Source: Chrysophaeum taylorii (taxonomy: Eukaryota > Sar > Pelagophyceae > Pelagomonadales > Pelagomonadaceae). From it: a DNA stretch of 46,561 bases. The notes under the pieces were generated by a model that saw nothing but the letters and a program-made list of their open reading frames with translations, searched no databases and was not told the origin of the DNA. The position numbers and the translations under genes were made by a program. The stretch covers positions 1-46,561 of the forward strand of contig JAQMWT010000550.1 of the NCBI GenBank assembly GCA_029834535.1, in the 5' to 3' direction. This document shows positions 8,749 through 29,748 of this stretch, piece by piece; the first letter of the stretch is position 1; each line of letters begins with the position of its first letter.

Positions 8749-8756
8749 CAAGTGCA

Positions 8757-9090
8757 GGCCAGTAAGTTTACCTAGTCCCAATCTCTAACCCCAGTAAGTT
8801 CACCTGGTCCCAGTAAGTTCACCTGGTCAGTAAGTTCACCTAGTCCAAATCTCTTAAGTTCGGCGCAAACCCACTCGTGCTCACACCCACTCCTTCGAGC
8901 TCGTCGCTCTCGCCTCCGCCAATCTAAGCTGCTTTGATCCGCACACGCCGCTAATCTTTGAGTTTACTCTAAAACCCCCAGTAAGCTCACCTGGTCCCAG
9001 TAAGTTCACCTGGTCACTATAGTCACCTAGTCCCAATCTCAAACCCCAGTAAGTTCACCTGGCCCCAGTAAGTTCACGTACAGTGCGCGT
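8757..9090. repeat. Array of CCAGTAAGTTCACCTGG units at the 3' end of Z
   Basis: About nine units of a 17-19 bp repeat (CCAGTAAGTTCACCTGGTC and variants with CTAGTCC) in two blocks (8757-8850 and 8980-9085), separated by about 130 bp that are also conserved in B and C. Each unit begins CCAG and ends CTGG, so it can form a small hairpin. Helitrons carry one hairpin near the 3' end. Here the motif is reiterated. Confidence 0.8.
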
Positions 9091-9670
9091 GTAGACGCCG
9101 GGAGGGGGCTTATCGGTATTGCGCAGCACGTGTGGGGTAGGGTGGAGTCGTCGACTCAGAAGAGCATATCATCGGGGCTGCCGATCGACAGAGAGCCACG
9201 TAGAGCTGGACGTGGCAGAAGACGGGCTTGTGGGCAAGAGGACGCCGACCTCGCGGGGCGTCTGGCCCTGGCTCTTGTTGATCGTTTGGCGTAGGCGGGC
9301 CTTATGGGATACAGGTTGGAGAAGCCTTGGTGACACGACACGATCGATGATGTATCGGGTGCCGTTGCAGTGGCCGTACGACGGGTCGAGGTTGCGACGA
9401 CTTTAAGCTCGAGATCAAAGTCAGCATGCCGTTGGTTGTCAGGGAGTTGAAAACTCGACTGTAAAGAGCGAGGCGTCGTCTTCCGACCCAACCTAGTCGG
9501 CCGAAAAGAACTCCGACGCCTCGTCTCCGGCAAAAAAAGGCCGCGGTCATGCGCGCGTTGTCAGCATCGACAACATCGTTTCGACGGGGCGTGAGAATGG
9601 CGCGCTGAAAGAGCCGCCGCGGGTCGTGGAAATAGTCTGCGAGGTCGCCGTAGACGGCTTGGAGGATCAA
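9091..9670 (-). pseudogene. Pif1-like (Helitron-type) helicase, C-terminal remnant in Z
   Basis: Minus-strand frames read VYGDLADYFHDPRRLFQRAI and LTPRRNDVVDADNARM, which match the 'RAILTPRN..VD..N' segment of Helitron helicases. Further on come the equivalents of LDP...CNGTR, KSQGQT (motif VI region) and QLYVAL, better preserved in copy C. The ATP-binding motifs I-III that should precede are absent: the sequence begins about 40 bp from the border with RT-derived sequence. Several frame changes occur, so this is a non-functional remnant. Such helicases unwind DNA during rolling-circle transposition. Confidence 0.75.
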
Positions 9671-9714
9671 TGCTTGGCTCGCGGGCCTACCCGATCCTTA
9701 CCCTGAATCGGGGG

Positions 9715-9920
9715 ACGTGCGTACGACCTACGGGCGGGGCCCGTCCTCTCTAAGCCTGCCCCACGACTCGGCGATGACCCCGAGTAGGTCCCGCGTACTT
9801 ATCTCCGCCCGTCAGGCACATCCCTCCTACCCCACAAACCCACCCACATCCTTCATGCTCCCCACACACACCCCCCTCTTAGCAGTCGACATTTAAAGAC
9901 AAACGACTATAGACAAACAT
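9715..9920 (+). pseudogene. Scrap of the RT element's 3' end
   Basis: Closely matches 18185-18435: the last codons of the RT-endonuclease frame (YDL.AGPVL then APRLGDDP) and the 3' untranslated region (TCTCCGCCCGTCAGGCACAT, the C-rich block, TCTTAGCAGTCGACAT) up to AGACAAACAT. It abuts the helicase remnant on its left. The next RT unit starts immediately to its right, giving a head-to-tail order. Confidence 0.85.
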
Positions 9921-9980
9921 GATGTGAGCTCAGTGTGCACGTCGACACGGGTTGTCATAGCTGACGCAAGTCCCGCCACC

Positions 9981-12593
9981 ATGGCTTCGGGCAGTCGGGG
10001 ACTGGCTTTCTCGTGCTTCCGGCGTCTCCTGCTCCTTTCCACCATCTTCGCCATTTTCCTCATTGTCAGCTCGCCATCAGCCCCCGCGAGTCATCCATTC
10101 CGTGTTTGGCCTTCGCTCTCGGTCCAGGTCTCCTGCGGCGTCAAGCGGCTCGATGTCTTCCCCACCGACGTCGATTACTTTTGGTCCCAGCGTCTCATGT
10201 TCCCCATAGGCTTTACTGTGCTTACGTTAGAGCGGCTCTTGACTCTCCTCCTGGTTAAGCGTTGTATGGTCACTATCTCGCAAGCTGCTGCTGCCGGCTC
10301 ATCTGTAGCCACCGCCTGCAACTCTTTGCCTTGCGCACCCTTCAAGGCCGCTTGCATTGGACCTCTTACCGCCCTCTGCAACTTGGTAAGCACGCTCGTG
10401 CGGATCTCACACGCACGTGATCGTCACCGCCTCGCCCACCGCAATCATCGTTGCCACCGCCATTGCTGCTACCCGCGGGCGGCCCAGCTGCGTCTCATGC
10501 GCGGCTTCTGGTCGCTCCGCCGTGCGGTTCAGCGTGATCCTTTGCATCGATACGCCCGTTGCCCTGCCGTCTATGGTTGCCTTATTCTCACGCACGCCGA
10601 GGAACGCAGAGTCTACGGTCATGTCCCGCGGCCTTTCGCCACCTTCTTCAAACGCGTCGCTTTTGTTTCGCGCCATGCCACTTCCGTGGCCCTTGGCCTT
10701 GCTCTTGACGCGTTTCTCCCTTACGAGCAACATCGCGATCCCCGTGGAGCTGCCTCGGAGTCCGCCCCTCGTGCGGCGTCACCTGCAACCTCGGAGCCAC
10801 CCCCAGCCACACCCGCTCGTCGGCCTCGCCATCGACGCCGACAGGAGTCCGCACCCCGTGTGGAATCACCGGCACCCTCGGTTGCGCCCCCAGCCACGCC
10901 TGCTCCTCATCCTCCCCACCGGCACCAACAGGAGTCCGCCCCTCGTGCGGAGTCTCCTGCAACCTCGGATACGTCCTCAGGTCCGCATGTTCCGCGTGCT
11001 CGTCGTCAGCGCCGACAGGAGCTCACCACTCCACCGTCCACGGACATGGGGCCGGATTCCCCTCCTCCCGCACCCGGACCAGACCGACACCACTCCCGTC
11101 GCCGCAGGTCTTCCCCCACGCCCACTGACACCACACCTCCTGGGCCTGTGGCTATGGACCTGGAGACATCGGAGGCAGGGTCCGCTACTTCCCCCCTTCG
11201 CCGTCGGGAACCCACCAATGCGACTCCCCCTCCGCCCGCTGCGACACCGGCACCGCGCCGCCATGCCCCCCGCCGCCGCGCGCCACCATCCGGGTCTGTT
11301 GCTACGGACATCGCGCCTCCACCGAACGCGGGGATCGCCAATACCACCGCGCCCCTCCCAATACCCACCACGGCGCCAGCCACCCACCCTCCCGGCCCCT
11401 CTGCCGAAAACTCTCCTGCATCGCGTCGCCGCCGCCCACACCGCCAGCGGTCCTCCGCCACAGTTCATGACCCCGTACCACTCGAGCCTGCGCCTATGGA
11501 CCTCGAACCGTCCTTCATGTACACCCACATTGCCGCCGAGAACCTCCCCTCGTCTGGCACACACCCTCTTCCCACCGGCACGGACATGGACCTTGAGGTC
11601 GACCATCCTTCGCCACCGGTTCCCGCGCACACCGCTGCCCCTGACATCTCTCCGCCATCTCCCGCACCCACGCCAACGCCTTCGCCCTCTGTCGAGGCTC
11701 CTGGCTCGTCGCACGCCCCCCTACCGCGTCTCCACGCCTTGCCTACCGATCGTGCTCGAGCCTGCACCCATCCCACTTTGCCAGCGGTCGCCCGCGCTGC
11801 ACGCACCCAACATCTACACGCCCAGGCGCGTGCAGCCCGGCTGAGCCTCGTCGCAGCTCGGCGCCACGATCCTGGTGAGTCTCGCCACCACGCTGCAACT
11901 CTTCTCCAGCGCCAGTTTCGCGCACGGACTCAACCCCAGGGAGCTCTCGCTACCGACAGCCCTCCATCGTCTGCTGCGGCCACACCGGCTCACTCGCCGC
12001 CCGCCTCCGCGACCCAGAGGTCGTCAACTCCCCCTCCGCCACCACAACCGGCTCTGCCTCCGACCCCTGCCCCACACTCTACTTTCTCGTCCACCGCTCG
12101 TGCTGCCCGAAGTCGCGCTCAGCATACTCTTGCACGTGCCGCCCGACAGAACCTCGTTGCGACCCTGCGCCGCGCTCCTGGTCAGCCACGTCACACCGCC
12201 GCGCTCCGTCTTCAGCGCTTTGTTCGCGCTCGGCATCACCTCCGTGCCCGTCGCTCACCTGCTACGCCCACACAGTCCGTCACACCCACTGCCACCAATA
12301 CTTCCCCGGCGTCTGCCACACCCACGCCAAATTCCTCGCCACCCTCGGGCCCGTCACCTACCCCTCCGCCGCCGCCATCTGCCTCGCCTTCACGCGCATG
12401 CACCAACTCTGCACATCCGGATGTCGCCCGCGTTATACATACCCGCGCTCAGCACGCTCAAGCACGTGCTGCCCGGCAGAACCGCGTCGCGGCCTTGCGC
12501 CAGACTCCTGGCCCGCCACTCCACTACGCAGCGGCCCTTCTTCAGCACCAATTTCGAGCCTGGAAGCGATTACGTGCTCGTCGATCTAACTAA
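9981..12593 (+). CDS. ORF1 of the RT element: Pro-rich protein with three IQ-like repeats
   Basis: Start chosen at ATG 9981 because it sits in a near-perfect Kozak context (CCGCCACCATGG). The open frame extends 57 bp further up without ATG. Residues about 8-30 form a hydrophobic stretch (LLLLSTIFAIFLIV), which could be a signal anchor. A Pro/Ser/Thr/Arg-rich region of about 350 residues follows. The C-terminal third holds three repeats of about 60 residues, each ending in an IQ-like motif: HHAATLLQRQFRAR, HTAALRLQRFVRAR and HYAAALLQHQFRAW. IQ motifs bind calmodulin-type proteins, but here the role could simply be nucleic-acid or self-binding. The stop at 12593 is created by the inserted retroposon at 12587. 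A splice-donor-like GGTAAGC occurs at 10384 but was not used in the call. Confidence 0.55.
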   Translation: MASGSRGLAFSCFRRLLLLSTIFAIFLIVSSPSAPASHPFRVWPSLSVQVSCGVKRLDVFPTDVDYFWSQRLMFPIGFTVLTLERLLTLLLVKRCMVTISQAAAAGSSVATACNSLPCAPFKAACIGPLTALCNLVSTLVRISHARDRHRLAHRNHRCHRHCCYPRAAQLRLMRGFWSLRRAVQRDPLHRYARCPAVYGCLILTHAEERRVYGHVPRPFATFFKRVAFVSRHATSVALGLALDAFLPYEQHRDPRGAASESAPRAASPATSEPPPATPARRPRHRRRQESAPRVESPAPSVAPPATPAPHPPHRHQQESAPRAESPATSDTSSGPHVPRARRQRRQELTTPPSTDMGPDSPPPAPGPDRHHSRRRRSSPTPTDTTPPGPVAMDLETSEAGSATSPLRRREPTNATPPPPAATPAPRRHAPRRRAPPSGSVATDIAPPPNAGIANTTAPLPIPTTAPATHPPGPSAENSPASRRRRPHRQRSSATVHDPVPLEPAPMDLEPSFMYTHIAAENLPSSGTHPLPTGTDMDLEVDHPSPPVPAHTAAPDISPPSPAPTPTPSPSVEAPGSSHAPLPRLHALPTDRARACTHPTLPAVARAARTQHLHAQARAARLSLVAARRHDPGESRHHAATLLQRQFRARTQPQGALATDSPPSSAAATPAHSPPASATQRSSTPPPPPQPALPPTPAPHSTFSSTARAARSRAQHTLARAARQNLVATLRRAPGQPRHTAALRLQRFVRARHHLRARRSPATPTQSVTPTATNTSPASATPTPNSSPPSGPSPTPPPPPSASPSRACTNSAHPDVARVIHTRAQHAQARAARQNRVAALRQTPGPPLHYAAALLQHQFRAWKRLRARRSN

Positions 12594-12811
12594 ACTAACT
12601 TCAGACCTCTCCCGAGCATGGGAGCCAGGCCGGACCGGCACGAGCCGCTCCGGTATCACGAAGAAAATTCACGCAGTTGGGGCAGAGGCGAGGGACGAGG
12701 ACTTGTTGATGGCGGACCGCCACTGCGCGCGGTCTTGTGCGAGGTCGTGCAAGAGCGTCGCAGGCCGCGGACGTCTTGGTCCACGAACAATCGACCTGTC
12801 CGTCGCGTTCT
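12587..12811 (-). mobile_element. Short retroposon (SINE-like), 225-bp copy, reverse orientation
   Basis: On the minus strand it ends ...CTCGGGAGAGGTCTGAAG then TTAGTTTAGTTA. It is closely similar to the copy at 40643-41059 and shares its 3' end with the stub at 45999-46047. It is flanked by TCGATC (12581-12586 and 12812-12817), a short TSD. The insertion including one TSD copy is 231 bp, a multiple of three, but it brings an immediate stop into ORF1. It is 5'-truncated relative to the 417-bp copy. Confidence 0.75.
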
Positions 12812-12817
12812 TCGATC

Positions 12818-13561
12818 CCTGGCAATAATCCGCCGCTTCCTGCGCCACACGGCGGCCGCTATGTCAGCTACCTCCGGGACCGCGCTTGTCCTATATGCTC
12901 CAGCCCTTGCTTTACCCGTTGCCAAGTCCGCTGCTGTCGCGTGGTCCTGCACCACGCCTGCGTTGGTCAGTGGGCACTAAGCAACCTCGCCGGCGACCAA
13001 GGCGACCCTGACGTGGCGCCCACCAACCGCGCGCGCCTTCCGCCGTGCCCCAACTGCCGCAGTCCTATACGCATGGTCCGCCCTCATCAACGCTGGGTGT
13101 CTGTGCACTCTCTCCCCCAGGTCCGCGCTGCCGCACCCATCGCATTTTCCCACTTGCTGCAGCCCTTGCCGCCACTACCGCCCGATATCGCATTCGAGCG
13201 CGTATGCGCGACGCCGCCCTTGCCGCTCGAGCCACTGCTGCTGCGGAACGCCATCTCGCCGCTATGCACGCTGCTGCTGCCGCTGCTGCGGCACTCCAAC
13301 TCGACGCGGGACGGGCCGCCGCCGCTGCTGCCAGCGCCGACGCTTACCTCGCCCATCGCGCTGCCGCCCACGCTGCTCAAGCTGCCCGTGCCGCCTGCCT
13401 CTCCCACATTGGCTCCCGCACGCGATCCACTGGCACCCGCAACACCCCGACCACCCCTCCCGATGGCAACCACCGCCCACTGCGTCTGGCAATCGCACTG
13501 CGAATGCAACAGACAGCCGCAACACCCCTGCCGCTGGCACCCGGACCACCCCCACTACTAG
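12818..13561 (+). pseudogene. ORF2 N-terminus: RING-like zinc finger and Ala-rich coil (frameshifted)
   Basis: Frame +2 shows ACPICSSPCF (12884), CCRVVLHHACVGQWA and LPPCPNCRSPI (about 13037-13070). This is a CX2C ... CX4HX2CX3W ... CX2C arrangement typical of RING-type cross-brace fingers, which usually recruit E2 ubiquitin enzymes. From about 13130 the coding signal moves to another frame with a long Ala-rich helical stretch (AALAARATAAAERHLAAMHA), then returns to the RING frame after the stop at 13561. The two shifts compensate, so the ancestor probably had RING, coil and RT in one frame. Whether the segment just after the retroposon (RRFLRHTAAAM) is the tail of ORF1 is unclear. Confidence 0.55.
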
Positions 13562-14529
13562 CACCCCTCCACCCCCGCCGCTGCCGCCGGCAACCGCCGC
13601 GCCCCTGCCCCTGCCACCAGCCACCGCAACACCCCTGTCACGGCTGCAGCCTCCACGAGCGCGTCTCCTGGCATTTCTCCCATTGGGCCACGGTCACATT
13701 CGGCGCCACCGTCTGTTGCCCCCGCCCACCCTACGTCATCCGGGCCAGCCCCCTCCCTCCCGACACGCCGTCCACGTGACCTGAGCGATTTGCACTCTGC
13801 GATCGACGAGGTCTCCATCAAAGACCTCATTACATCGCCGTGCTCGTGCATTCGCACCATTCCCGCCCAATTCCGCGAGGCATGGGCGTGCGCAATGGCC
13901 GAGGTGTGTTCATGGTTTGAAGACGCCACTTCCGATAACGCTCGTGACCGTGCCCTCCTTTGGTACATGAGCCTTCACAGCCTACTTCTTCGGCGAGCAC
14001 CACGAGGCGGCGCCCGTCGGCCCGACGTGCTCACTGACCGCTTTGCAGCCTTCGCCGCAGGGCGTTACGACCTCCTCATTGACGGCTACCTCCACGACGT
14101 GACTCGCGTGCGCTCCCATGTACGCTCACGGGCGGCCCCCGACGATGACGCGGACGCACTTCGTGCATTTCGACTCGCTGAATCTGGCGACCTCTCTCGG
14201 GCGTGCCGTATTCTCACCAGCCTGGGCATCGCCGACCCATGCCACCCAGACGTCATGCGCCAACTCGTGTCCAAACATCCTGCTCGCAAGGAGGACCTTC
14301 ACACTTTCCCCAACCACCCGCAAGGGCTCGCCACACTCTCGGTCGCCCTGCGTGAAACTTACCGCACGCTCCGGCAGAAGCCTGGTGTGGGCCCCGACCA
14401 GTGCCGCAATGAATTCCTCTCCGTTTTCGCCCAGCCCTTCCCGAGCAACGTCAAGGCACGCTCGGCGATGGACAAAATCGATAACCTTGAGACCTTGTTC
14501 GTTCGTGGAGCTCTTCCTGACTGGTATTA
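13562..14529 (+). CDS. ORF2, part before the RT core (interrupted by B)
   Basis: Continuous open frame starting in a Pro/Ser linker and continuing with LSDLHSAIDEVSIKDLI, RALLWYMSLHSLLLRR and LVSKHPARKEDLHTF, then VGPDQCRNEFLSVF. Position and content match the N-terminal extension that precedes the RT fingers in non-LTR retrotransposons ('alwyl.hslLLr' and 'kpG.Dg..n.fl' type segments). The frame is cut after DWYY at 14529 by the insertion of element B, beyond which it resumes at 15579. Confidence 0.7.
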
Positions 14530-14536
14530 CAAGTGC

Positions 14537-14875
14537 AGGCCAGTAAGTTCACCTAGTCCCAATCTCTAACCCCAGTAAGTTCACCTGGTCCCAGTAAGTT
14601 CACCTAGTCCCAATCTCTAACCCTAGTAAGTTCGGTGTAACTTACACTGTAAGCCCACTCGTGCTTACACCCACTCACCCCACTCTCCTTCGAGCTCGTC
14701 GCTCTCACCTCCGCCAATCTAAGCCGCTTTGATCCGTACACGCCGCTAGCCTTTGCGTTCACTCTAAAAACCCCAGTAAGTTCACTTGGTCCCAGTAAGT
14801 TCACCTGGTCACTAAGTTCACCTAGTCCCAATCTCAAACCCCAGTAAGTTCGCCTGGTCCCAGTAAGTTAACCTA
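14537..14875. repeat. CCAGTAAGTTCACC array in B
   Basis: Same two-block array as in Z: units at 14540-14635 and 14775-14870, with the conserved spacer (CTCCTTCGAGCTCGTCGCTC) between them. Confidence 0.8.
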
Positions 14876-14899
14876 AAGTGCGCGTGTAGACGCCGGGAG

Positions 14900-15475
14900 G
14901 GGGCTTATCGGTATTGCGCAGCACGTGTGGGGTAGGGTGGAGTCGTCGACTCAGAAGAGGATATCCTCGGGGTTGCCGATAGACAGAGAGCCACGTGGAG
15001 CTGGACGTGGCAGAAGACGGGCTTCGCCAAGAGGACGCCGACCTCGCGGGGCGTCTGGCCCTGGCTCTTGGTGATCGTTTGGCGTCGGCGGGCCTTAAGG
15101 GATACAGGTTGGAGGAGCCTCGGTGACAACGACACGATCGATCATGTATCTGGTACCGTTGCAGTGGCCGTGCGACGGGTCGAGGTTGCGAGGCGTCGTC
15201 TTCCGACAAAACCTAGTCAGCCGAAAAGAACTCCGACGCCTCGTCTCCGGGAAAAAAAGGCCGAGGTAAAGAGCGAGGCGTCGTCTTCCGACCCAACCTA
15301 GTCAGCCGAAAAGAACTCCGACGCCTCGTCTCCGGTAAAAAAAGGCCGCGGTCATGCGCGCGTTGTCAGCATCGACAACATCGTTTCGACGGGGCGTGAG
15401 AATGGCGCGCTGAAAGAGCCGCCGCGGGTCGTGGAAATAGTCTGCGAGGTCGCCGTAGACGGCTTGGGGATCACT
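14900..15475 (-). pseudogene. Pif1-like helicase C-terminal remnant in B
   Basis: Minus-strand frames read ITKSQGQTPREVGVLLAKPV and QLHVALC (about 15085-14985). The remnant is shorter and more rearranged than those in Z and C because the FNSLTTNGM region is replaced by the 85-bp duplication. Non-functional. Confidence 0.7.
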
Positions 15476-15578
15476 GTCTGGCTCTCGCGCCTACCTGATC
15501 CTTACTCTCGCGCCTACCTGATCCTTACCCTAAATCGAGGGACAAACAGACAAACATCTGTCGATTAGTAGTTAGGAC

Positions 15579-17873
15579 TTCATCACCACCACGGTAACCC
15601 TCATTCCGTTGGTGAAACGACGCGCCGCTGACGCTAACCAAGCACGTGACGTTCGACCTATCGGCATTGGCACCGTCCGCCGCCGTGCCACTGGACGGTG
15701 CCTTGTGCGTAGCCTCCACTCCGAACTCTCTGAGGCACTGTACCCGATCAACGTTGCCGTCGGGGTCAAGGGCGGCCCCTCGCGCCTCGTCTTTGGCGTC
15801 CGCACCCACGCGGAGCAGTACCCCGACCAGGTCATCATCAAGCTGGACAAACGCAACGCCTTCAACGAGCTCAAGCGCCGGACCGTCGTGGACAAACTCG
15901 CAAACCACGCCAACGCTAAGCTGCGTGCCTTTGGCCACTTTATGTTCAAGCAATTACGGCCGGCATCCTGGGTGGCCCTCCATGGCCCCACCGGCCTCGA
16001 TCGCGCCCCCTTCGACTCTCAAGAAGGCGGCCAGCAAGGCGACCCCACCTATCCACCGGCGTACTGTCTGGCAACGCATGACGCCGCACAGGCCCTTGAC
16101 ACCCGCTTACGTTCATGTGCCGGCTACGCACGATTTGGCATGGACGACGGCGTCATCTCTGGTTCCCCTCGTGAGGTTGTCGACGCCCTCCTGCAGTACG
16201 CCCGCGACATCCAAGCTAGCGGCGAGGAGCTTCGCCTCGACAAGTGCGTGGCGTTCTGTCCGGCACTTGGCATGGGTCTTCTCGATCACCCCGATGTTCA
16301 CGACCACGTCCAAGTTGCGCCTGACGGCACGCGTACTCTTGCTGGTATCCCCGTTGTCGCCGACGGCCTCGTAATCTACGGTGTGCCCATCGGCTCCCCC
16401 GGACACGCCGGAGATGCCTATGTCGAAGCTACCTTGCAACGCGAGGTTGACGCTCAGGTGAGCTCTATGAGCACGATTCGCACCAAGCTCCAGAACGTCT
16501 CCCTCCACTGCATGTACTCGTTGGGCCGCTACTGCATCGCCCCGCGCATGGACTACATCGCGCAACACTGCTACCCCACCAACAATGCCTTGAGCGCGCT
16601 CCGCCGCTTCGACGTTGCCGTCCTGAGCTTCGTCGCCACAGCACTTGGCGCAGAGCCGCGTCAGGTTTTTGACTCCACCGGCATCGTCCTCCAACGCCTC
16701 CGTCTTCCTGCTCGAAGTGGGGGTGGCGGCATTCGCTCCTGCGCCGACCTCAGCCCCGCCGCCTTTGTTTGCACGGCGGCCCAGGCCCTCCCACACCTCG
16801 TCGACCTTCGCGATCCTACGGGTGCCGTGGAGGTCCCTGGCTACCTCCCCCGCCTCGCCTCGGTCCTGGGTGCCACTTCTTTTCGCACAGGTAACGAGTT
16901 GCACCGTTGGCACCACCTCCTCGCATCCGGTTGCCTCCTGGGGCGAGCACTCGCGACTGCGTGGGACGGACTTCGGGCTGATCTCCGTACCACGCTGGCT
17001 TCCCACGGCGGCGCTGGTTCCGGCGACCCCGCCAACGTTCATCTCGTCGACGGTCCTCTCTCCCACGAATTCGTCTCCATGGGCGTCCTCGTCGACCCCA
17101 CCATCTCGACACCCGTGCTCATACCCCAACTCCAGCGTGCTCTAACCTCCCAGCGCGAGACAGCTCGGGCCACTGCACTCCAGCGCCTTGCGGCCACCCT
17201 TCCCATCACCGATGCACTTCGAGTAGCGGCGTCCTCATGGGATCGCTTCTCGACCACGTTCATCAGCTCGTGGCCCAGCTCCGCCCTTCAAATCCCCAAC
17301 CGCTGCTGGGCTGAGATGTGTGCCCAGTACTTTGGCTACCCCTCTCCAGCTTGTTCGGGCCTCGTGGGCACTCGCATTCTGGGCACTGACGTCGTTCTCG
17401 ACGCTCACGGCAAGGTGCTTCTCACGCAGGCCAACCTTGTCAACCGCGGAGGAGCGCGGACCACCTGGCATGACGGCCAGCTCGACTGCGTCCTCTGCAG
17501 CGTCAAAGAGGCCGGCATCCCAGCCCTGTCCGAGGTTTTCGGCATCTTTGCTGACGTCGTCGCCCCTACCATTCGCACGCGCCTCTACGGCCGGTACCGA
17601 GGCAATCTCGCCCGTCGCCACGTCGTCCCAGACATCCTCACCACGCTCGACAACAAGGAGCAGCTCTACGACATCAAAACCCTCGCTTGGGGTTCGTTCT
17701 ACACCGCCCACGCCCTCCATCCCTCCCGCCCGTCGCCTGTCGATCGGCGCGCAGCGCAAGTCCACTCCGAATATATACCTCGCTCACGCCCGCGGCATCG
17801 ACGCCATCATCCCCCAGCCGGGTACAGCACCACCGCCTGGCTTCTTGGGCCCTGTCGAACAGCGGCTACGTAG
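15579..17873 (+). CDS. ORF2: non-LTR-type reverse transcriptase with C-terminal nuclease-like domain
   Basis: Resumes the frame interrupted at 14529. RT motifs in order: LIPLVKRR and RPIGIG (15600-15670), IKLDKRNAFNELKRR with the first catalytic Asp at 15846, GGQQGDPTYPP (about 16030-16060), and FGMDDGVISG with the Asp pair at 16143-16148. The box is MDDG rather than the usual Y/F-A-DD. RLDKCVAF and thumb-like sequence follow. The C-terminus has HVVPDILTTL and LYDIKTLAW (Asp 17631; Asp-Ile-Lys 17670-17678), a PD...D-x-K arrangement of restriction-like endonucleases. CVLC at about 17490 may be part of a zinc site. The enzyme would nick target DNA and prime reverse transcription there. The stop at 17873 follows a frameshift near 17755. 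Confidence 0.75.
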   Translation, partial: FITTTVTLIPLVKRRAADANQARDVRPIGIGTVRRRATGRCLVRSLHSELSEALYPINVAVGVKGGPSRLVFGVRTHAEQYPDQVIIKLDKRNAFNELKRRTVVDKLANHANAKLRAFGHFMFKQLRPASWVALHGPTGLDRAPFDSQEGGQQGDPTYPPAYCLATHDAAQALDTRLRSCAGYARFGMDDGVISGSPREVVDALLQYARDIQASGEELRLDKCVAFCPALGMGLLDHPDVHDHVQVAPDGTRTLAGIPVVADGLVIYGVPIGSPGHAGDAYVEATLQREVDAQVSSMSTIRTKLQNVSLHCMYSLGRYCIAPRMDYIAQHCYPTNNALSALRRFDVAVLSFVATALGAEPRQVFDSTGIVLQRLRLPARSGGGGIRSCADLSPAAFVCTAAQALPHLVDLRDPTGAVEVPGYLPRLASVLGATSFRTGNELHRWHHLLASGCLLGRALATAWDGLRADLRTTLASHGGAGSGDPANVHLVDGPLSHEFVSMGVLVDPTISTPVLIPQLQRALTSQRETARATALQRLAATLPITDALRVAASSWDRFSTTFISSWPSSALQIPNRCWAEMCAQYFGYPSPACSGLVGTRILGTDVVLDAHGKVLLTQANLVNRGGARTTWHDGQLDCVLCSVKEAGIPALSEVFGIFADVVAPTIRTRLYGRYRGNLARRHVVPDILTTLDNKEQLYDIKTLAWGSFYTAHALHPSRPSPVDRRAAQVHSEYIPRSRPRHRRHHPPAGYSTTAWLLGPCRTAAT

Positions 17874-18255
17874 ATACGGCACCGTCGCCGGCCTCGTCTT
17901 TGGTGCCTTCGGTGAGGCCAGCGCGGCGTGCCGCGCCCTCGCCCAAACATGCGCAATGCGCATTGCTGCGCGAACCTGGGTGGCAAGCGGCTGCGCCAAC
18001 TTCACAGAGGCAAAGGCGGCCCAAACTCGCCGCATCTACCGTGAGTGGGGGATCGCCAACGCATTAGGCCGGGCTCGCTGTGCCCTCACCGCCCTCACCC
18101 ATGTCGCCGCCTCGGGTAGCCCCACCCAGGCCGCCCGATCCCAGCAGGACGTCACCCTTCGTCGCACATACGTCCGGCGGCAGCATGCGTACGACCTCCG
18201 GGCGGGGCCCGTCCTCTCTTCGCCTGCCCCACGACTCGGCGATGACCCCGACTAG
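17757..18255 (+). pseudogene. ORF2 C-terminal tail after the frameshift
   Basis: From about 17757 the coding signal passes to another frame: TPNIYLAHARGIDAI, GFLGPVEQRLRRYG, VAGLVFGAFGEASAACRAL, then RIYREWGIANALGRARCAL, ending LGDDPD at 18255. GPVE and FGAFGEAS stretches of this kind follow the nuclease-like segment in algal and protist RT proteins, as far as I recall. One single-base indel separates this from the RT frame, so the copy is dead unless the frame is bypassed. Confidence 0.65.
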
Positions 18256-18456
18256 GTCCCGCATACTTATCTCCGCCCGTCAGGCACATCCCTCCTACTC
18301 CACAAAACCACCCACATCCTTCATGCACCACACACATCCTTCATGCACCACACACACACCCCCCTCTTAGCAGTCGACCTTTGAACAAACAAACAGACAG
18401 ACAGACAGACAGACGGACAGACAGGCAGACAAACATCTGTCGATTAGTAGTAAAGA
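18256..18456 (+). other. 3' untranslated region of the RT element and outer end of Z
   Basis: C-rich segment with two copies of a short repeat (ACACATCCTTCATGCACCAC, 18311-18355), then TCTTAGCAGTCGACCT, a CAGA repeat run (ACAGACAGACAG, 18390-18430) and CATCTGTCGATTAGTAG. The final bases are also the TC end of Z in the opposite direction, so the retroelement's 3' end and the Helitron-like 5' end coincide. Confidence 0.75.
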
Positions 18457-19725: not shown

Positions 19726-19756
19726 GCATCAACATGCGAACACTCGCAGAACAACA

Positions 19757-20857: not shown

Positions 20858-20917
20858 GAGGAGAAGCTTTGAGGAAGACGTCAATAGATGAATTGTGGCA
20901 GAAAGAAACAGCAGAGA

Positions 20918-22411
20918 TTAGGGCGAAAAGCACGAGGTGAGGTAACGAGCACGAAGCCGGAGGAAGGAAGGAGCTTCCGTACTGCGGGTGAAAATATCGC
21001 TAAGATTGTGAAGGCGGGGAATATGCTGGAGATCAATGATGCGGTTGCGATGATATTCGGCGGTGCTGTAAAAGCGAATATCAATATGGCGGGTGCGCCG
21101 TGTGAGACATTGGAGACGGACTTGGGTGACGGTGGTGCTATTATCGACATACATTGGTACCGTGTGACGAGGGAGATCAAAGTCATCAAAAAGTTTAAGA
21201 AGCCAAGAGAGCTCAACAGTAGCGGCGTAAAGAGCGAGCAATTCAGCTTCAAAAGAAGAGCGAGTAAGGAGGTACTGCGAGCGGGAGCAGTAGGCTATCA
21301 TAGAGCCAGCAAGGAGAAAACAAAATCCAGTAGTGGAGTGGCGGTCATCAGGGTCGTCGGCCCAGCTGGAGTCGGAATAACCACAGAGACGAAGGGTAGA
21401 ATCGCGACCAAGAATAAGGGCAAGATCCTGAGAACCGTTGAGATAACGCAGAGTGTGGGATAAAGCGTGCCAGTGGGGTTTACCAGGATTGTGGGAAAAA
21501 CGCGCACACTGATTGACGGACCACGTGATATCAGGGCGAGTCATGATGGAGATGAATAGGACACAGCCAACAATACGGCGAAAAGGGATGCGCGCCATGA
21601 AGATGTGATCTGGAGAACCAGGAGCAGGACAATCAGCCGCAGAAAGATGAAGACCTTTTGGAGCGGGAGTCAGTTCAGGTTTACTGTTGATGAAGCGATG
21701 TTCGGTAAGGATTTCACGGATAGCATGGGATTGGTCAAGAGTGAGGGTTTTCTGAGGGCGATCACGCGTAATGCGAAGACCAACGTAAGAGGCGAGATCA
21801 AGTTCATTGACGTCAGTGAAAGTGCGGAAACGGAGGAAAAAGGCTTGGTAATGGCCAATGCAATGACGAGGGTGCGCCACAAGAAGATCATCAACGACAA
21901 GAACGAGACGCAGGACAACGGTAGAATTGAGCACGAGCTTGTAATTGCAAGTGTCACCAGATCCGCGGACGAAGCCACAATCATTGAGAAGGAAGCGTTC
22001 CAAATAAAGCCACCAATTGCGACAAGCTTGTTTGCAACCATACCAAGAGCGACGGAGCTTGTAAACGATTTTGGAACCATCGGTGGGTTGGCGAGGAGCA
22101 TAGCCTTCGGGTGGCCAGACATAGATGTCTTCGTCAATGGGAGCTTGGATAAAAGCGGAGCTGACATCCAACTTGTGCAAATCCCAGTCATGAACAGCGA
22201 CAAAGGTTAGAAAGAAACGGATCGTGACGATGTTAGCAACCGGTGAGTAGGTGTCATGATAATCAATGCCGTGAACCTGGGTGTAACCGCGGACAACGAG
22301 GCGAGCCTTGCATGATTTGAAGTGGCCAGAGTCATACTTCTTGCGGAGGATCCACTTGAGGGTACAAATGTTGCAGAAAAAGTCGAAGGAAGGCGAACAA
22401 CATCCCAGCAA
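20918..22411 (-). CDS. Copia-2 reverse transcriptase-RNase H
   Basis: Open frame of about 497 codons. RT: ICTLKWILRKK, KARLVVRGYTQVHGIDYHDT, WDLHKLDVSSAFIQAPIDED (first Asp), WYGCKQACRNWWLYL, and LVLVVDDLLVAH, where the family YVDD is VVDD. RNase H: CGYSDSSWADDPDDRHSTTG, SSFEAELLALYAATVELSWL and MYVDNSTTV. These are all the catalytic acids expected. It copies element RNA into DNA and degrades the RNA strand in cytoplasmic particles. It is separated from the integrase frame by a one-base deletion near 22395, at the border of the linker and RT. This is the best-preserved RT of the four copia copies. Confidence 0.9.
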   Translation of the reverse strand: MLGCCSPSFDFFCNICTLKWILRKKYDSGHFKSCKARLVVRGYTQVHGIDYHDTYSPVANIVTIRFFLTFVAVHDWDLHKLDVSSAFIQAPIDEDIYVWPPEGYAPRQPTDGSKIVYKLRRSWYGCKQACRNWWLYLERFLLNDCGFVRGSGDTCNYKLVLNSTVVLRLVLVVDDLLVAHPRHCIGHYQAFFLRFRTFTDVNELDLASYVGLRITRDRPQKTLTLDQSHAIREILTEHRFINSKPELTPAPKGLHLSAADCPAPGSPDHIFMARIPFRRIVGCVLFISIMTRPDITWSVNQCARFSHNPGKPHWHALSHTLRYLNGSQDLALILGRDSTLRLCGYSDSSWADDPDDRHSTTGFCFLLAGSMIAYCSRSQYLLTRSSFEAELLALYAATVELSWLLKLFDDFDLPRHTVPMYVDNSTTVTQVRLQCLTRRTRHIDIRFYSTAEYHRNRIIDLQHIPRLHNLSDIFTRSTEAPSFLRLRARYLTSCFSP

Positions 22412-24114
22412 CCAAGCTGACCTAGGGAGCTGTACTCTTTGGCGATGGCTTGCAACCAGCCAGGACGCTCAGGATTGGTCGGAGCTAAAGCTTCACGTAA
22501 ATGGGTGGAAGTAATGGTAGTTTCGTCAATGTATGAATACTGAGAGGTTTCTTCGGAAGCAGAGTAATAAACATGTGCATGGGGATCAACAAGGGTGTTA
22601 GCAAAACAAAGGGGAAGGAAGACATAATGAACTAACAAACGAAAGCTAACATAAGAGACATACAAAGAGTTACAGGAGGAAACAGAAGCGACAGAGGAAA
22701 CAGAATCGACATTGTGACAGGATGAAACAGAATCGCCAGTATAAAAGTTTGTTGGTTGTTGTAACGCGCGTTGGTCGACTTTGCGCGGTCGGCCCCGTCT
22801 GGCTCGACGTAATGGTGCACGTTTCGTATTGTCCGGTAACGGTTGTGTATTGTCCGGTGACGGTTGAGATATTGTTTCAGGGGTGATCAGTCCCGATAAG
22901 GCCGGCTCCTGAGCATCAAAAACAGAAGACAAGGGAGCAACAGCGGAAGATAAACGAGGGTCGTAATAAAATAAGTCAGGAAAACGAGAATCCACAAGAG
23001 GCGGAGGGAGGGGTTGAGAGGACAGAGACTTACGCAGAGCAAAATTTTCGTCAAAAACAACATCAATCGAGGTGTGGATGACAGGACCAGTGGCGCGTTG
23101 AAGCAATATGCGATATCCAGGGCCGGCAGAGGGATACCCAATGAAGATACCTGTTCTAGCTTTGGTAGGCCATTTGTCGCCAGTAAGAATTGCAGCAGGA
23201 CAGCCCCAAACACGAAGAAAATCGACACGGGGGAGAGTTTCATGGAGCATTTCATATGGCGTCATATATCCAGGATTAGAGGCATTTGGCATGCGCTCAG
23301 AGATGAAGTCAGCCGTTTCCATGGCCCAACGCCAAAAATCAGGTGGACGGTGCGCATGTACCAAAAGAGTGCGAGTAATATCAACAGTTGCGCGATGAGA
23401 GCGTTCCACAACACCAGAAAAAGCGTGCGCCTGTGAAGTTTTGGACTGAGCTGCAGGAGCACGTTTGGGAGCGATGTTGTTGCCCAGACAGAAGTTTTCG
23501 AATTGGCCCATAAGAGAGCGGTCACGATCGGTGTAGATGAGGGCAATGCGATATCCAAATGGGCGAACCACGGTAGACAGCAAAAGTTCGAGTTGACGAG
23601 CGTTCGTAAGTGCATCGTGTCGTGGAGCAAAGTAACGTGTGCGGCGGCGCGTATGATCATCGACAAACTCGAGGATCGCGCGGTCTTGATATATGAAGGA
23701 TGGGACGCCTGCAAACATGAGATCGGCGTGGATAATAAGGTAGGGCGCAACGGCACGTGGACGAGACAAAGGCTCGGAGGCAGGAAGCGAAGTGGAAGCG
23801 GAAGCATGTGCTTTACGTTGGCCAACATGCGCAGCATGCATTTTACCGAGAGCACAAGCAGGACAAAAAGAAAGAGACGCGGAGCTCGGGAAAAGCGGTG
23901 CGCCAACAGCGAGAGAAGACAACCGGCGGATGTAAGAGGGACTGTAATGACCAAGACGAGCATGCCAAAGGTCGAAGGTAAGTTGAGTGCGTTGAGACAC
24001 AGCGGGAAACGCACAAGGGTCATGGACACGAGGGCAAGAAGAAAATGCCACAAAAGGTGAAACGAAGTCCGCGTAGGGCGCAGCGGTCGTATTGCCGATC
24101 CAACAGACGATCAA
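22207..24114 (-). CDS. Copia-2 integrase and linker
   Basis: The zinc-binding region HARLGHYSPSYIRRL ... CPACALGKMHA gives the HHCC set. The DDE core has HADLMFAGVP (first Asp), IYTDRDRSLMGQF (second Asp) and GVVERSHRATVDI (Glu). WGCPAAILTGDKWP and GIFIGYPSAGPGY mark the C-terminal part found in copia integrases, followed by a Pro/Ser-rich linker and the start of RT (ERPGWLQAIAKEY). The frame leaves the coding path after LPSTFSA because of the missing base near 22395. It inserts the DNA copy, giving the 5-bp TSDs seen here. Confidence 0.9.
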   Translation of the reverse strand: MIVCWIGNTTAAPYADFVSPFVAFSSCPRVHDPCAFPAVSQRTQLTFDLWHARLGHYSPSYIRRLSSLAVGAPLFPSSASLSFCPACALGKMHAAHVGQRKAHASASTSLPASEPLSRPRAVAPYLIIHADLMFAGVPSFIYQDRAILEFVDDHTRRRTRYFAPRHDALTNARQLELLLSTVVRPFGYRIALIYTDRDRSLMGQFENFCLGNNIAPKRAPAAQSKTSQAHAFSGVVERSHRATVDITRTLLVHAHRPPDFWRWAMETADFISERMPNASNPGYMTPYEMLHETLPRVDFLRVWGCPAAILTGDKWPTKARTGIFIGYPSAGPGYRILLQRATGPVIHTSIDVVFDENFALRKSLSSQPLPPPLVDSRFPDLFYYDPRLSSAVAPLSSVFDAQEPALSGLITPETISQPSPDNTQPLPDNTKRAPLRRARRGRPRKVDQRALQQPTNFYTGDSVSSCHNVDSVSSVASVSSCNSLYVSYVSFRLLVHYVFLPLCFANTLVDPHAHVYYSASEETSQYSYIDETTITSTHLREALAPTNPERPGWLQAIAKEYSSLGQLGCWDVVRLPSTFSATFVPSSGSSARSMTLATSNHARLASLSAVTPRFTALIIMTPTHRLLTSSRSVSF

Positions 24115-24383
24115 AAGAAGACCACAGCGACGAAGCAGGGGAATAACGTGATGCGTTTGGCGGTGACGTATAATACGTTGCGGATGAGCAGGGCCAACGG
24201 CCGGAATGGTGTGGCAATCGTAACCAACTTGCTCAAGGGCATGATCCGAAAGAATCCGTTTGTCACCAAGGCCAGGAGAGATGAGGGTATGCGGGAACGC
24301 GACATGGATGCCATGAGGGGCGGAAAGAGTGGGTGCAGGAGAAGGAAGACCACGATTGTCAAGAGGACCAATTGAAGGGAACG

Positions 24384-25838
24384 TTAAGTGAGCAGTGCCA
24401 GAACCAGAAACAGAGCCAGTGCCGATAGCAGAAGTGATGGAGTGCTGTTGACTGTTGTCAAGGTCAGTGAAACCAGCAGGGGAATTGAAGAGATTGACGT
24501 TGGCACCGGTGTCGTAGACAACGAGGCGAAGGTTGGTGCTGCGAAGGTAGTCGCGCTCACGGGCGGTGAGCAGAGCGGTAAGGGCCTTGGTGGAGGAAAG
24601 GACTTGGCCTTGGTGGAGGAAAGGACTTGGTGAATGGAGGGGGAGATGGAAAGAAGATGGAAAGTGAAAGACGGATAGGTGGGTGCAGAAAGAGATGGGT
24701 CAGGAAGGGAGACAGCGGTGGAAGGCGGGACAGAGGGTGTGGTGGAGGGTGGCAACGCAATAAGCGGCGGAGAGGGTTGAGATGGAGGCAAGAGTGGGAT
24801 GGGGGCGGAAAGATAGTTTTCGTAGAAGGGTGGATGGGGCCGAGGTGGGTATTGGGGATTGGACCGAGGTGGGTATTGGGGATTTGACCGACGTGGGTAT
24901 TGATATTGATGGCGAGGGCGGGCGGTGGCTTGTGAGAGCAAATAGCGCTGGCGCTTATGACAATCTTTCTGATGATGGCCAGGAATACCACAAAAGTGAC
25001 AAAGATCAGTATGGCGTGGGCGCTTGCTATGGAAACCACGGGAAACTGAAGATGAAGGTCGGTTACGGAAAGATGTTCGAAAAGATGGGCGAGGGCTAGA
25101 ACGTTGTTGGGAGCGCAAAGCATTGAGGCGATGAAGGTATTTATCAAAAGGATGGTTGGTACGACCGTAAAAGTTGGAACGTTCACGATGACGGGGACTT
25201 TCACGGAACGTAGCATGGACAAGCGCAGACTTGGTCTGAAGATGATCAAAAACTTTACTGTGGAGGCGATCAACGAAACCATCATATGTGCGCAGTTTAG
25301 GATCAAGTGCAATGAGATCCTTAGACAAGATCGAGTCGGGGATTTTCGTCTGAAGCAACTGCAATGCAATTGTGTCAGGGAAATCTTGATGATGCCGAGC
25401 AACTTGAACACCAGTGATGAACTTGTTAAGAAAAGACTCAAGTTCATCGATATTGTTGCACACCAAAGAATGCAATGAAGCAATTGCAGACTGAGCGACA
25501 CGATCTCCATGGCCCATGTAAACATCAGTAATGCGCCTGTAAAGCCGCGTGAAGTTCATATCGCGGTTTTCACGGATATCCGCACGATCAGTATCATGCA
25601 TTGGTAGCGCCATGAACAGTGCAGAGTACCAGCGTTGCTGCTTAAGACCAAATTCTTCTTCAGAGCAGCCAGAGGCGGAAATGCTAGTCCAAGTGTCATT
25701 GGTCAAGATAATGCGATCACCGGTGGAAATGATCATGTTTTCCAGGCGCCGGGTCCATTGGTGAAAAAGATGTCGCTCACCACTGAAGGCATCGATTTTT
25801 TGCGAAAGCTTGCCATCTTTAATTTCGATCGAGGACAT
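24384..25838 (-). CDS. Copia-2 Gag with start of protease region
   Basis: Start ATG at 25838 (MSSIEIKDGKLSQKIDAFSG). The capsid region includes HQWTRRLENMIISTGDRI and WYSALFMALPMHDTDRADI. Two nucleocapsid zinc knuckles are expected. The first (SNFYGRTNHPFDKY) has lost all three Cys, while the second, CHFCGIPGHHQKDC, is intact. A Pro-rich repeat (YPPRSNPQYPPRSNPQYPPR) follows. The frame should run into protease, but a 23-bp tandem duplication (24588-24633) shifts it, so DTGA (24513-24502) lies in another frame. Confidence 0.85.
   Translation of the reverse strand: MSSIEIKDGKLSQKIDAFSGERHLFHQWTRRLENMIISTGDRIILTNDTWTSISASGCSEEEFGLKQQRWYSALFMALPMHDTDRADIRENRDMNFTRLYRRITDVYMGHGDRVAQSAIASLHSLVCNNIDELESFLNKFITGVQVARHHQDFPDTIALQLLQTKIPDSILSKDLIALDPKLRTYDGFVDRLHSKVFDHLQTKSALVHATFRESPRHRERSNFYGRTNHPFDKYLHRLNALRSQQRSSPRPSFRTSFRNRPSSSVSRGFHSKRPRHTDLCHFCGIPGHHQKDCHKRQRYLLSQATARPRHQYQYPRRSNPQYPPRSNPQYPPRPHPPFYENYLSAPIPLLPPSQPSPPLIALPPSTTPSVPPSTAVSLPDPSLSAPTYPSFTFHLLSISPSIHQVLSSTKAKSFPPPRPLPLCSPPVSATTFAAPTFASLSTTPVPTSISSIPLLVSLTLTTVNSTPSLLLSALALFLVLALLT
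24588..24633 (-). repeat. 23-bp tandem duplication breaking Copia-2 Gag-protease
   Basis: Coding-strand unit CCAAGTCCTTTCCTCCACC(AAGG) is present twice in a row. Copia-4 has it once (about 36665-36690). Twenty-three is not a multiple of three, so the downstream protease is thrown out of frame. Confidence 0.8.
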
Positions 25839-25946
25839 GATAAACGATAACGAACCGAACACGTAGCAATGAACTGAAGCCGATGAGGAGTCGCCGTTAT
25901 CCGTGAAGTCAAGCACACGTTCGATCGAAACGAGCACTTGGTACCA

Positions 25947-26042
25947 TGTGACAACTGGAATGAGGCGTCACACTAGCGATAAGAGAATGACGTAGGGATA
26001 CTGGATACGTGGTGCAGGGGTAAGTGTCATAGCTTCCTCACA
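25947..26042 (-). repeat. Copia-2 5' LTR (96 bp)
   Basis: Coding strand TGTGAGGAAGCTATGACACT ... CCAGTTGTCACA, bounded by TG and CA and next to TSD TAGTA. Directly inside it lies TGGTACCAAGTG, a plausible primer-binding site of the initiator-tRNA type (TGGTA.CA). Confidence 0.9.
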
Positions 26043-26049
26043 TAGTATT

Positions 26050-28058: not shown

Positions 28059-28084
28059 TCTAACGGAAGCGGCGAAAATTTCAG

Positions 28085-28255
28085 GTTTGTGGGAAAGCTT
28101 GATAACGGCGGCCCTTGTTTAGTCAGTGAACCCTTATGTTTGCTCTCCAAAAGTACATGTTTAGTCAACCAATATACGGATTGACCAAACTTAAGTGACC
28201 AAACTTGTTGAGGGTTTACGGCGACCAAACATATATGGTGGTTGGAAACTTGACT
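28085..28255 (+). repeat. X1 right end
   Basis: GGGAAAGCTTGATAACGGCG, AGTCAGTGAACCCTTATGTT, then GACCAAACTTAAGTGACCAA and CAACTTGTTGAGGGTTTACG-like sequence match the X2 right end in reverse complement. The motif is inverted relative to the left and internal arrays. Element C begins at 28256. Confidence 0.8.
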
Positions 28256-28799
28256 TCCTAACTACTAATCGACAGATGTTTGTCTGTCTGTTTGTCTGTT
28301 TGTCTTTAAATGTCGACTGCTAAGAGGGGGGTGTGTGTGGGGAGCATGAAGGATGTGGGTGGGTTTGTGGGGTAGGAGGGATGTGCCTGACGGGCGGAGA
28401 GTCTGTTTGTCTTTAAATGTCGACTGCTAAGAGGGGGGTGTGTGTGGGGAGCATGAAGGATGTGGGTGGGTTTGTGGGGTATGAGGGATGTGCCTGACGG
28501 GCGGAGATAAGTACGCGGGACCTAGTCGGGGTCATCGCCGAGGCGTGGGGCAGGCGAAGAGAGAACGGGCCCCGCCCGTATGTCGTACGCATGCTGCCGC
28601 CGGACGTATGTGCGACGAAGGGTGACGTCCTGCTGGGATCGGGCGGCCTGGGTGGGGTTCCCCGAGGCGGCGACATGGGTGAGGGCGGTGAGGGCGCAGC
28701 GAGCCCGGCCTAATGCGTTGGCGATCCCCCACTCACGGTAGATGCGGCGAGATTCTGTTTGTCCCCCGCTTTAGGGTAAGGATCAGGTAGGCGCGCGAG

Positions 28800-29365
28800 C
28801 CAGACAGTGATCCTCCAAGCCGTCTACGGCGACCTCGCAGACTGTTTCCACGACCCGCGGCGGCTCTTTCAGCGCGCCATTCTCACGCCCCGTCGAAACG
28901 ATGTTGTCGATGCTGACAACGCGCGCATGACCGCGGCCTTTTTTTCCCGGAGACGAGGCGTCGGAGTTCTTTTCGGCCGACTAGGTTGGGTCGGAAGACG
29001 ACGCCGCGCTCTTTACAGTCGAGTTTTCGACTCCCTGACAACCAACGGCATGCTGACTTTGATCGCGAGCTTAAGGTCTTCGCAACCTCGACCCGTCGCA
29101 CGGCCACTGCAACGGTACCAGATACATGATCGATCGTGTCGTGTCACCGAGGCTCCTCCAACCTGTATCCCTTAAGGCCCGCCGACGCCAAACGATCAAC
29201 AAGAGCCAGGGCCAGACGCCCCGCGAGGTCGGCGTCCTCTCGCCCAAGCCCGTCTTCTGTCACGTCCAGCTCTACGTGGCTCTCTGTCGATCGGCAACCC
29301 AGAGGATATGCTCTTCTGAGTCGACGACTCCACCCTACCCCACACGTGCTGCGCAATACCGATAA
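28800..29365 (+). pseudogene. Pif1-like helicase C-terminal remnant in C (best preserved)
   Basis: VYGDLADCFHDPRRLFQRAI, LTPRRNDVVDADNARM and FDSLTTNGM are followed, after a frame change, by NLDPSHGHCNGTRYMIDRVV (29084-29143) and then TINKSQGQTPREVGVLSPKP and FCHVQLYVALCRSAT (29200-29300). The LD...CNGTR and KSQGQT...QLYVAL.R pairs are hallmarks of Helitron and Pif1 helicases. The upstream Walker motifs are missing, so only the last third of the helicase remains. One frame break lies between the two blocks. Confidence 0.85.
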
Positions 29366-29389
29366 GCCCCCTCCCGGCGTCTACACGCG

Positions 29390-29745
29390 CACTGTAGGTG
29401 AACTTACTGGGGCCAGGTGAACTTACTGGAACCAGGTGAACTTACGGGGGTTAGAGATTGGGACTAGGTGAACTTTAGTGACCAGGCGAACTTACGGAGA
29501 CCAAGTGAACTTACTGGGGTTTTTGGAGTAAACTCAAAGGTTGGCGGCGTGTGCGGATCAAAGCAGCTTAGATTGGCGGGGGTGAGAGCGACGAGTTCGA
29601 ATGAGATTGGGGTGAGTGGATGTGAGCACGAGTGTGTTTACGCCGAATTTACTGAGGTTAGAGATTGGGACTAGGTGAACTTAACGGGACCAGGTGAACT
29701 TACTGGGGTTAGAGATTGGGACTAGGTGAACTTACTGGCCTGCAC
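29390..29745. repeat. Quasi-palindrome array in C
   Basis: Reverse complement of the array in Z and B (CCAGGTGAACTTACTGG units) at 29395-29520 and 29650-29740, with the same conserved spacer. Confidence 0.85.
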
Positions 29746-29748
29746 TTG

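Follow-up and report, generated by a model that had tools for sequence, protein, structure and literature searches.

A putative non-LTR retrotransposon nested at the 5' end of a Helitron family in Chrysophaeum taylorii

In Xenopus, the non-long terminal repeat (non-LTR) retrotransposon Tx1L is specific for the DNA transposon Tx1D, and the pair was at first regarded as a single composite element. The endonuclease of Tx1L is of the apurinic type, and Tx1D moves by cut-and-paste. Here we analyze a 46,561-nucleotide stretch of the Chrysophaeum taylorii genome, referred to below as the window (assembly GCA_029834535.1, contig JAQMWT010000550.1, positions 1 to 46,561), which contains three elements, designated Z, B and C, with the same two ends. 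An original prediction, made by a model from the sequence alone, had described them as a Helitron-like family carrying a reverse transcriptase (RT)-endonuclease unit back to back with its helicase, and had proposed that this RT cargo supplies the terminal sequence of a single hybrid element. Our analysis of the window and of its source genome suggests that these are, very probably, two independent mobile elements nested in one another, namely a Helitron host and a non-LTR guest that inserts at a hot spot in the 5' end of the host. Both families, the site, the truncation of the guest, its target-site duplications (TSDs), the repeated hits and the empty sites can all be read in the DNA itself.

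HELPO2 of Pleurotus ostreatus is described as a Helitron ending in CTTG, and one Pleurotus Helitron as containing an inserted LTR/Gypsy retrotransposon (PMC4289320). Tandem Helitrons have also been reported (PMC5148889). The targets of non-LTR elements named in PMC4640811 include rRNA genes, tRNA genes, microsatellites and transposons, and the same source describes non-LTR elements of the restriction-like endonuclease (RLE) type that target repeats. Helentrons are described in PMC4067079 as having an internal microsatellite, a preference for T and an endonuclease related to that of CR1 non-LTR elements, the capture of which its authors attribute to retrotransposition into a Helitron or to a DNA-based event. 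Full-text searches of open-licence PMC papers listed no non-LTR element that homes to a Helitron end, a scope outside which most subscription journals lie, as do the contents of two maize papers among those listed.

The guest retrotransposon and its insertion site

Two forms of the Helitron 5' end were found. The RT-free form reads TC...CGACAGATG(TYTG)nTC|CCTCGATTTAGGG, with 1,037 exact cases genome-wide, and the RT-bearing form reads ...(TYTG)nTC|TTTAAATGTCGAC. This difference suggests that the RT unit enters where the (GACA/AACA)n tract near the TC end meets the Helitron body, at GAGG^GACA on the RT strand. The RT unit lies at this boundary in antisense to the Helitron. RT sequence occupied 497 of the 1,534 readable Helitron 5' ends (about a third), the other 1,037 being empty; readable ends are those that fit two exact patterns with tracts of up to ~44 nt. 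In all five copies whose 5' junction falls on the Helitron body (L122 and L124-L127), the edge of the body is at, or no more than two bases from, CGRGG^GACA. Between the TC end and the body of 46 sampled loci, 78 RT ends were antisense and none sense, the loci having been picked by the antisense pattern. The presence of GACA on only one strand of the tract would explain this orientation.

Copies of the RT unit also occur beyond the Helitrons. A genome search in which 59 of 1,353 candidates were scored gave at least 69 matches with 76-100% identity, most of them above 90%. The expected 3' end was fetched for 20 copies and was present in 15. Downstream of these 15 ends we found a Helitron TC end in seven (one a variant and one lying past a nested RT tail), the tract followed by a CTTG end in one, nested RT tails only in three, and non-Helitron DNA in four; GACA follows TTTAAA in 13 of the 15. 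Exact RT 3' ends number 2,434 genome-wide (control 0), with 2,153 of them after TGTC, which is GACA on the RT strand, and 1,562 after TGTYTGTC (controls 0), while for 497 the distance to a Helitron TC end is 14-44 nt (control 0); these exact patterns undercount diverged RT copies. Among the first 100 places listed, many of the remaining RT 3' ends are clustered in nested groups. The 3' end is constant and the pieces are truncated at the 5' side to many lengths, from ~30 bp to more than 1 kb, as expected of non-LTR elements. We therefore regard the RT unit not as a part of the Helitron but, in all probability, as a non-LTR retrotransposon of its own, with a putative restriction-like endonuclease. 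No relatives of it were found in viral contigs.

TSDs, a further mark expected of such a guest, were found both outside and inside Helitrons. Three of the four non-Helitron RT insertions have one, namely GACAGAAG (C526), GACATAGAAAG (C340) and GACATT (C574). The 5' side was inspected in 11 RT copies, comprising three in non-Helitron DNA (C340, C574 and C455), five on Helitron body, and L123, L121 and L128; no TSD was seen in L123, which lies in other DNA, and the 5' side of L121 and L128 was not resolved. TSDs were present in three of the five Helitron-body copies, being GACAGACAGAC (C334), GACAGACAAACAG (C458) and GACA (C528). A wider test began with 44 loci; the body junction could be read in 26, and 14 of the 26 qualified by length. 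In nine of the 14, the tract remnant on the body side wholly equals the end of that locus's own outer tract (p=0.0014, outer tracts permuted).

The junctions between RT and Helitron body were compared using 47 RT-bearing 5'-end entries. The body junction was in range for 35 of them, and as two of the 35 were the identical locus, 34 loci were left. All 34 junction sequences are different, which suggests that the site has been hit repeatedly by many separate insertions. Four Helitrons (L021, L089, L090 and L103) share the 5' flank CTTAGCAG|TC, which is a sequence of RT 3' untranslated regions (UTRs), and the 3' flank of L021 matches the RT 3' UTR as well; these flanks suggest that insertion goes both ways between the two families.

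The Helitron host and its Rep-helicase copies

The host is identified from its sequence as a Helitron family, with the Rep-Pif1 helicase coming from rarer, longer copies. In the window, exact TC ends lie at 15558-15577 (-), 18437-18456 (-) and 28256-28275 (+), none being found in 100 shuffles, and exact CTTG ends lie at 8749-8760 (-), 14530-14541 (-) and 29737-29748 (+). The 12-base CTTG motif is weaker alone, as 2 of 100 shuffles also reach three matches when one mismatch is allowed. Genome-wide there are 2,487 exact TC ends (reversed-pattern control, 0) and 2,675 exact CTTG ends (control, 6), such that the ends noted in the original prediction proved to be both exact and abundant. T directly follows CTTG in 2,606 of the 2,675 cases. 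In filtered samples of the fetched loci the 3' flank was T in 33 of 33, and the 5' flank was G in 21, T in 10, A in 9 and C in none of 40. The family therefore shows neither the insertion between A and T nor the 3' CTRR terminus of Helitrons, having a 5' flank of G, T or A before a 3' T, and CTTG at its end. The prediction had taken CTTG as the mark of an unusual lineage; it is indeed unusual, but it is already in print for HELPO2 (PMC4289320). Since CTTG replaces CTRR and has this published exception, membership among Helitrons rests on other features: the TC end, the lack of a TSD at the one insertion compared with its empty site, the Rep-helicase of the longer copies and the head-to-tail CTTG|TC junctions, on which the predicted Helitron assignment was borne out. 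The exact head-to-tail junctions number 436 genome-wide and are consistent with rolling-circle movement.

Comparison of filled with empty sites was possible for B. Locus L053 reads GACTGGTATTA|CTTCATC, and the window holds B between these two halves with no TSD. The absence of a TSD, noted in the prediction for all three elements, is thus supported for B, at the one insertion that was checked, and a 1-bp duplication of T would be indistinguishable from none. Repeats resembling the 3' terminal AACTTACTGG number seven in B, six in C and six at the end of Z, and one occurs in each of two autonomous copies. These repeats correspond to what had been described as a repeated hairpin array; the predicted 3' subterminal stems of one non-autonomous and one autonomous 3' end are unlike. 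In four loci (L015, L017, L038 and L058) the tract follows the 3' end at once (CTTG|TGTTTGTCTG) and the TC terminus is skipped, possibly an alternative 5' end in tandem copies. In five others (L006, L016, L027, L033 and L094) the 20-bp TC terminus occurs twice, 21-43 bp apart, as if the 5' end had been re-used.

A genome search with PF14214 gave 40 matches. Twelve of these Rep loci were cut out, and six belong to the family, with 97-100% identity in long alignments; among the six, L041 is the locus of L095, L040 that of L051 and L043 that of L052. L045-L050 have no nucleotide match to the family and indicate a second Rep-bearing Helitron group in this genome. L051 and L052 terminate in the common GGCCTGCACTTG and encode Rep and a Pif1 helicase on the TC-to-CTTG strand, with Pfam scores of 199 bits for PF14214 (L051) and 214 bits for PF05970 (L051 and L052), and the Rep motifs GLPHAHILL and KYIHKYVYKG were recognized by eye in the Rep-bearing copies. 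Copies with the family 3' end thus combine a Rep of the HUH type with two tyrosines and a Pif1-type helicase, as Helitrons do. In L095 (C105:47950-54900), a copy at 82-6862 has both ends exact, with exact CTTG|TC junctions on either side. Some of the Rep copies are damaged, the Rep part of L052 being interrupted by a stop and the helicase of L095 by a change of frame, and Pfam gave no match to an endonuclease domain in the family Rep-helicase. At 140-200 of L095, the open Rep frame starts at an ATG within an RT-derived piece of the tract, and the guest may alter the start of the host gene there.

The ~1-kb units appear to derive from longer copies by internal deletion, with a decayed helicase C-terminus retained. 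B agrees with an autonomous copy at 37 of 37 bases of the 5' end, at 97% of the 30 bases past the tract and at 95% of the last 22 bases, and stretches of its helicase C-terminus show 84-88% nucleotide identity. The helicase C-terminus predicted near the CTTG end is therefore real, in the form of decayed DNA. The helicase remnant in window ORF 9156-9533 gave no Pfam hit.

Arrangement of the elements in the window

The features of Z, B and C are collected in Table 1. The predicted layout was not confirmed: Z extends from 8749 to 18456, and B is nested within its RT frame. Nor is the RT 3' end always at the TC end, since B has none and the genome holds 1,037 TC ends with an empty tract. An RT-endonuclease unit back to back with a (remnant) helicase does occur in some copies, but it is not a constant feature.

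Table 1. Coordinates of element features in the window
Feature	Position	Strand	Basis
Element Z	8749..18456	-	Termini, sequence reading, self-comparison
Z segment, Helitron body bordering 9717	8749..9716	-	88-90% identity to B and C over ~990 bp
Older 5'-truncated RT 3'-end fragment in Z	9717..9897	+	Abuts Helitron body at CGGGG^GAC
Long RT unit in Z, antisense to Helitron, split by B; 5' border approximate	9898..18385	+	ORFs, genome copies, boundaries
RT reading frame upstream of B, terminating ...ALPDWYY	13562..14529	+	ORF translation, locus comparison
Element B, RT-free Helitron of 1,048 bp, within RT frame of Z	14530..15577	-	Termini and sequence
RT reading frame beyond B, with KLDKRNAFNEL, GGQQGDP and FGMDDG (RT) and VPDI-x-YDIK (putative restriction-like endonuclease motif)	15579..17873	+	Translation, by eye
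(GACA/AACA)n tract of Z, between RT 3' end and TC end	18386..18436	-	Sequence
5' TC terminus of Z	18437..18456	-	Exact match
Element C, Helitron, TC end 28256-28275 and CTTG end 29737-29748	28256..29748	+	Termini, self-comparison
Two nested 5'-truncated RT 3'-end pieces in tract of C	28305..28752	-	Sequence, self-comparison, junction analysis
Helitron body of C, decayed helicase C-terminus and subterminal repeats	28764..29748	+	Sequence, self-comparison

Self-comparison of the window showed that the short fragment at 9717 matches the RT 3' UTR at 18186-18336 with 94% identity over 151 bp. Translation placed the C-terminal remainder of the RT after 17873 in a different frame, up to 18255. In B, the target site of the retrotransposon is empty, at 15540^15541 (GAGG^GACA). 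The history of Z would have begun with a 1-kb Helitron landing before T. An RT insertion at GGGG^GAC would then have left the truncated piece, a second RT insertion between this piece and the tract would have given the long unit, and another Helitron, B, would have entered the RT frame. C appears to be the same kind of host as Z, with two truncated RT pieces. A 10-bp sequence, TCTGTTTGTC, flanks the inner RT piece of C on both sides and fits a TSD.

Upstream ORFs of the RT unit (12710-13561 and 9897-12593) contain, by eye, a RING-like CPIC...CPNC and IQ-like repeats; they had no match in Pfam, even at E 5, and the other ORFs of the unit yielded nothing useful against Pfam. Elsewhere in the window, Ty1/copia-like retrotransposon regions are present on both strands, at 20918-25967 (-) and 33647-39955 (+), with matches to RVT_2, gag_pre-integrs and SH3_retrovirus, and an additional RVT_2 fragment lies at 33647-34342. 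Short AT-rich repeats of the CAAGTTTGGTCA type border Z on both sides (8670-8745 and 18460-18620) and C on its 5' side (28150-28255). Similar repeats are found at 43079-43135 and beside L051, and may represent another repeat family.

Alternative explanations and comparison with known systems

According to the nested-element reading, the host would move by rolling-circle replication, inserting before T and frequently leaving head-to-tail arrays. The guest would nick the host at the GAGG^GACA hot spot, and the nick would prime reverse transcription of the guest RNA, the 3' end of which is ...GTCGACATTTAAA. Reverse transcription would usually stop early, which would give the 5' truncation, and a short TSD would be left. 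Once inside the Helitron ends, the guest could afterwards be replicated as part of the Helitron. Of this scheme, we infer the nick, the RLE chemistry and the rolling-circle movement.

Several results weigh against this reading. The RT and RLE labels rest on motifs recognized by eye: the Pfam match to RVT_1 (E=0.028, 14.6 bits) is below the cut-off of 29.6, searches of PDB sequences and NCBIfam gave no match to the RT unit, and a single-sequence AlphaFold2 model of an RT piece was useless, with a mean pLDDT of 33.9. An exact TC end was found in only one of three Rep-bearing copies (L095), the fetched stretch of L051 having none and the TC end of L052 being altered. Near the 5' end of L051, sense and antisense RT ends lie side by side, and the genome-wide search covered the antisense orientation only. 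No clear TSD was seen at the RT copies of C455, C81, C587 and C137, and five of the 14 usable loci in the wider TSD test lacked a whole tract match. For five of the 34 junctions (L077, L079, L082, L099 and L117), what precedes the body is something other than one simple, unbroken run of RT sequence. Truncation may in some cases reflect later deletion, as in the C50 array, where the RT piece of unit 1 differs in length from those of units 2 and 3 although all three units share one tract. Finally, the guest could be a microsatellite targeter for which the Helitrons are just the commonest tract.

The last point can be put as an alternative in its own right, in which the elements are nested but the RT unit targets any (GACA/AACA)n microsatellite and the Helitrons are its commonest carriers. 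It differs from the preferred reading solely in site choice, so that the probabilities of the two overlap, and we consider it less likely than not. GACA starts three of the four non-Helitron insertions (L053, L060 and L062), and HERO and Togen families aimed at microsatellites are described in PMC4640811. However, all five readable body junctions are at the first GACA past the body and are not scattered along the tract. RT-bearing tracts are also little shorter than empty ones (means of 33.3, n=43, and 38.4, n=14), a comparison of little weight because the RT-bearing loci were mostly picked with the 44-nt ceiling. A different proposal, that the 1-kb repeats are a satellite into which the RT unit merely inserts, would account for the 436 exact head-to-tail junctions, but these are a minority beside 2,487 TC ends, and the varied flanks, the precise empty site of B, the T after CTTG and the Rep-helicase copies with identical ends refute a simple satellite as the sole explanation; we give this proposal next to no credence.

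The hybrid element of the original prediction, in which a Helitron captured the RT as cargo and took over its end as a terminus, giving one element that moves through both DNA and RNA, is in our judgment highly improbable. In its favor, Z and C hold RT within TC...CTTG ends, RT pieces lie in the tract of all three Rep-bearing copies sequenced there (L051, L052 and L095), and one RT junction is common to two units of the C50 tandem array. Yet 1,037 tracts are empty as against 497 occupied ones, B has no RT, four of the 15 RT 3' ends adjoin non-Helitron DNA and the insertions there have TSDs in three of four cases, and no two of the 34 junctions agree. These observations largely refute a single hybrid. 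The TC end adjoins the tract with or without RT, and the RT end is ruled out as the source of the TC terminus, since tract and TC end exist without it. The helicase block and the RT unit occur independently with different borders, an outcome that the prediction itself had named as its refutation. Because a retrotransposon landing repeatedly at a Helitron end makes the pair look like one element, this case is also a warning that nested elements with common outer ends can pass for a hybrid.

Some carriage of RT pieces by the host is nevertheless compatible with nested elements. The C50 array (L093) comprises three head-to-tail Helitron units with an identical tract; units 2 and 3 have one RT/Helitron junction in common, the RT piece of unit 1 being longer. 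RT pieces may thus have been copied along inside Helitron tandem arrays, although unequal crossing-over could also be the source of this pattern, and since the pieces appear to shrink by later deletion, some truncation points may not mark separate insertion events. The C63 Helitron pair, which also shares an identical tract, was rejected as a case of co-transposition, its duplication including the host flanks and thus being silent on carriage. It is tempting to speculate on a standing partnership, which we consider unlikely, in which the Helitrons are a renewable landing pad and vehicle, arrays copy RT pieces as DNA, and repeated landings near the Rep-helicase gene can feed new coding or regulatory sequence to the Helitron. 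In L095 the open Rep frame extends back into an RT-derived piece. If true, the partnership would present, still in action, one of the steps by which Helentrons are supposed to have gained an endonuclease. Apart from such a partnership, target choice can be studied here in hundreds of natural insertions accompanied by empty sites and TSDs, and the system makes testable the suggestion in PMC4067079 that Helentrons may have gained their endonuclease by retrotransposition into a Helitron.

The pair recalls Tx1L in Tx1D, from which it differs in that the guest has a motif of the restriction-like type and the host is a Helitron. Like Helitrons as described, HELPO2 included, the host has a 5' TC, no TSD, a Rep and Pif1-type helicase and non-autonomous derivatives, and it shares CTTG with HELPO2 (PMC4289320). 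Unlike Helitrons in general, it ends in CTTG and not CTRR, is found after G, A or T before T and not between A and T, and has by its 5' end a tetranucleotide tract that appears to be a recurrent retrotransposon target. The guest resembles CRE, R2, R4, NeSL, HERO and Utopia elements, as far as the published accounts describe them, in its constant 3' end, variable 5' ends and insertion into repeated sequence; it differs in having a single Helitron position as its hot spot, the comparison being made without placing it in a clade. With the Helentrons and DINE-1 of the literature the host shares putative rolling-circle movement, a microsatellite and a preference for T. It differs from them in that its Rep-helicase has no Pfam endonuclease match and in that the retrotransposon appears to be separate and to insert repeatedly.

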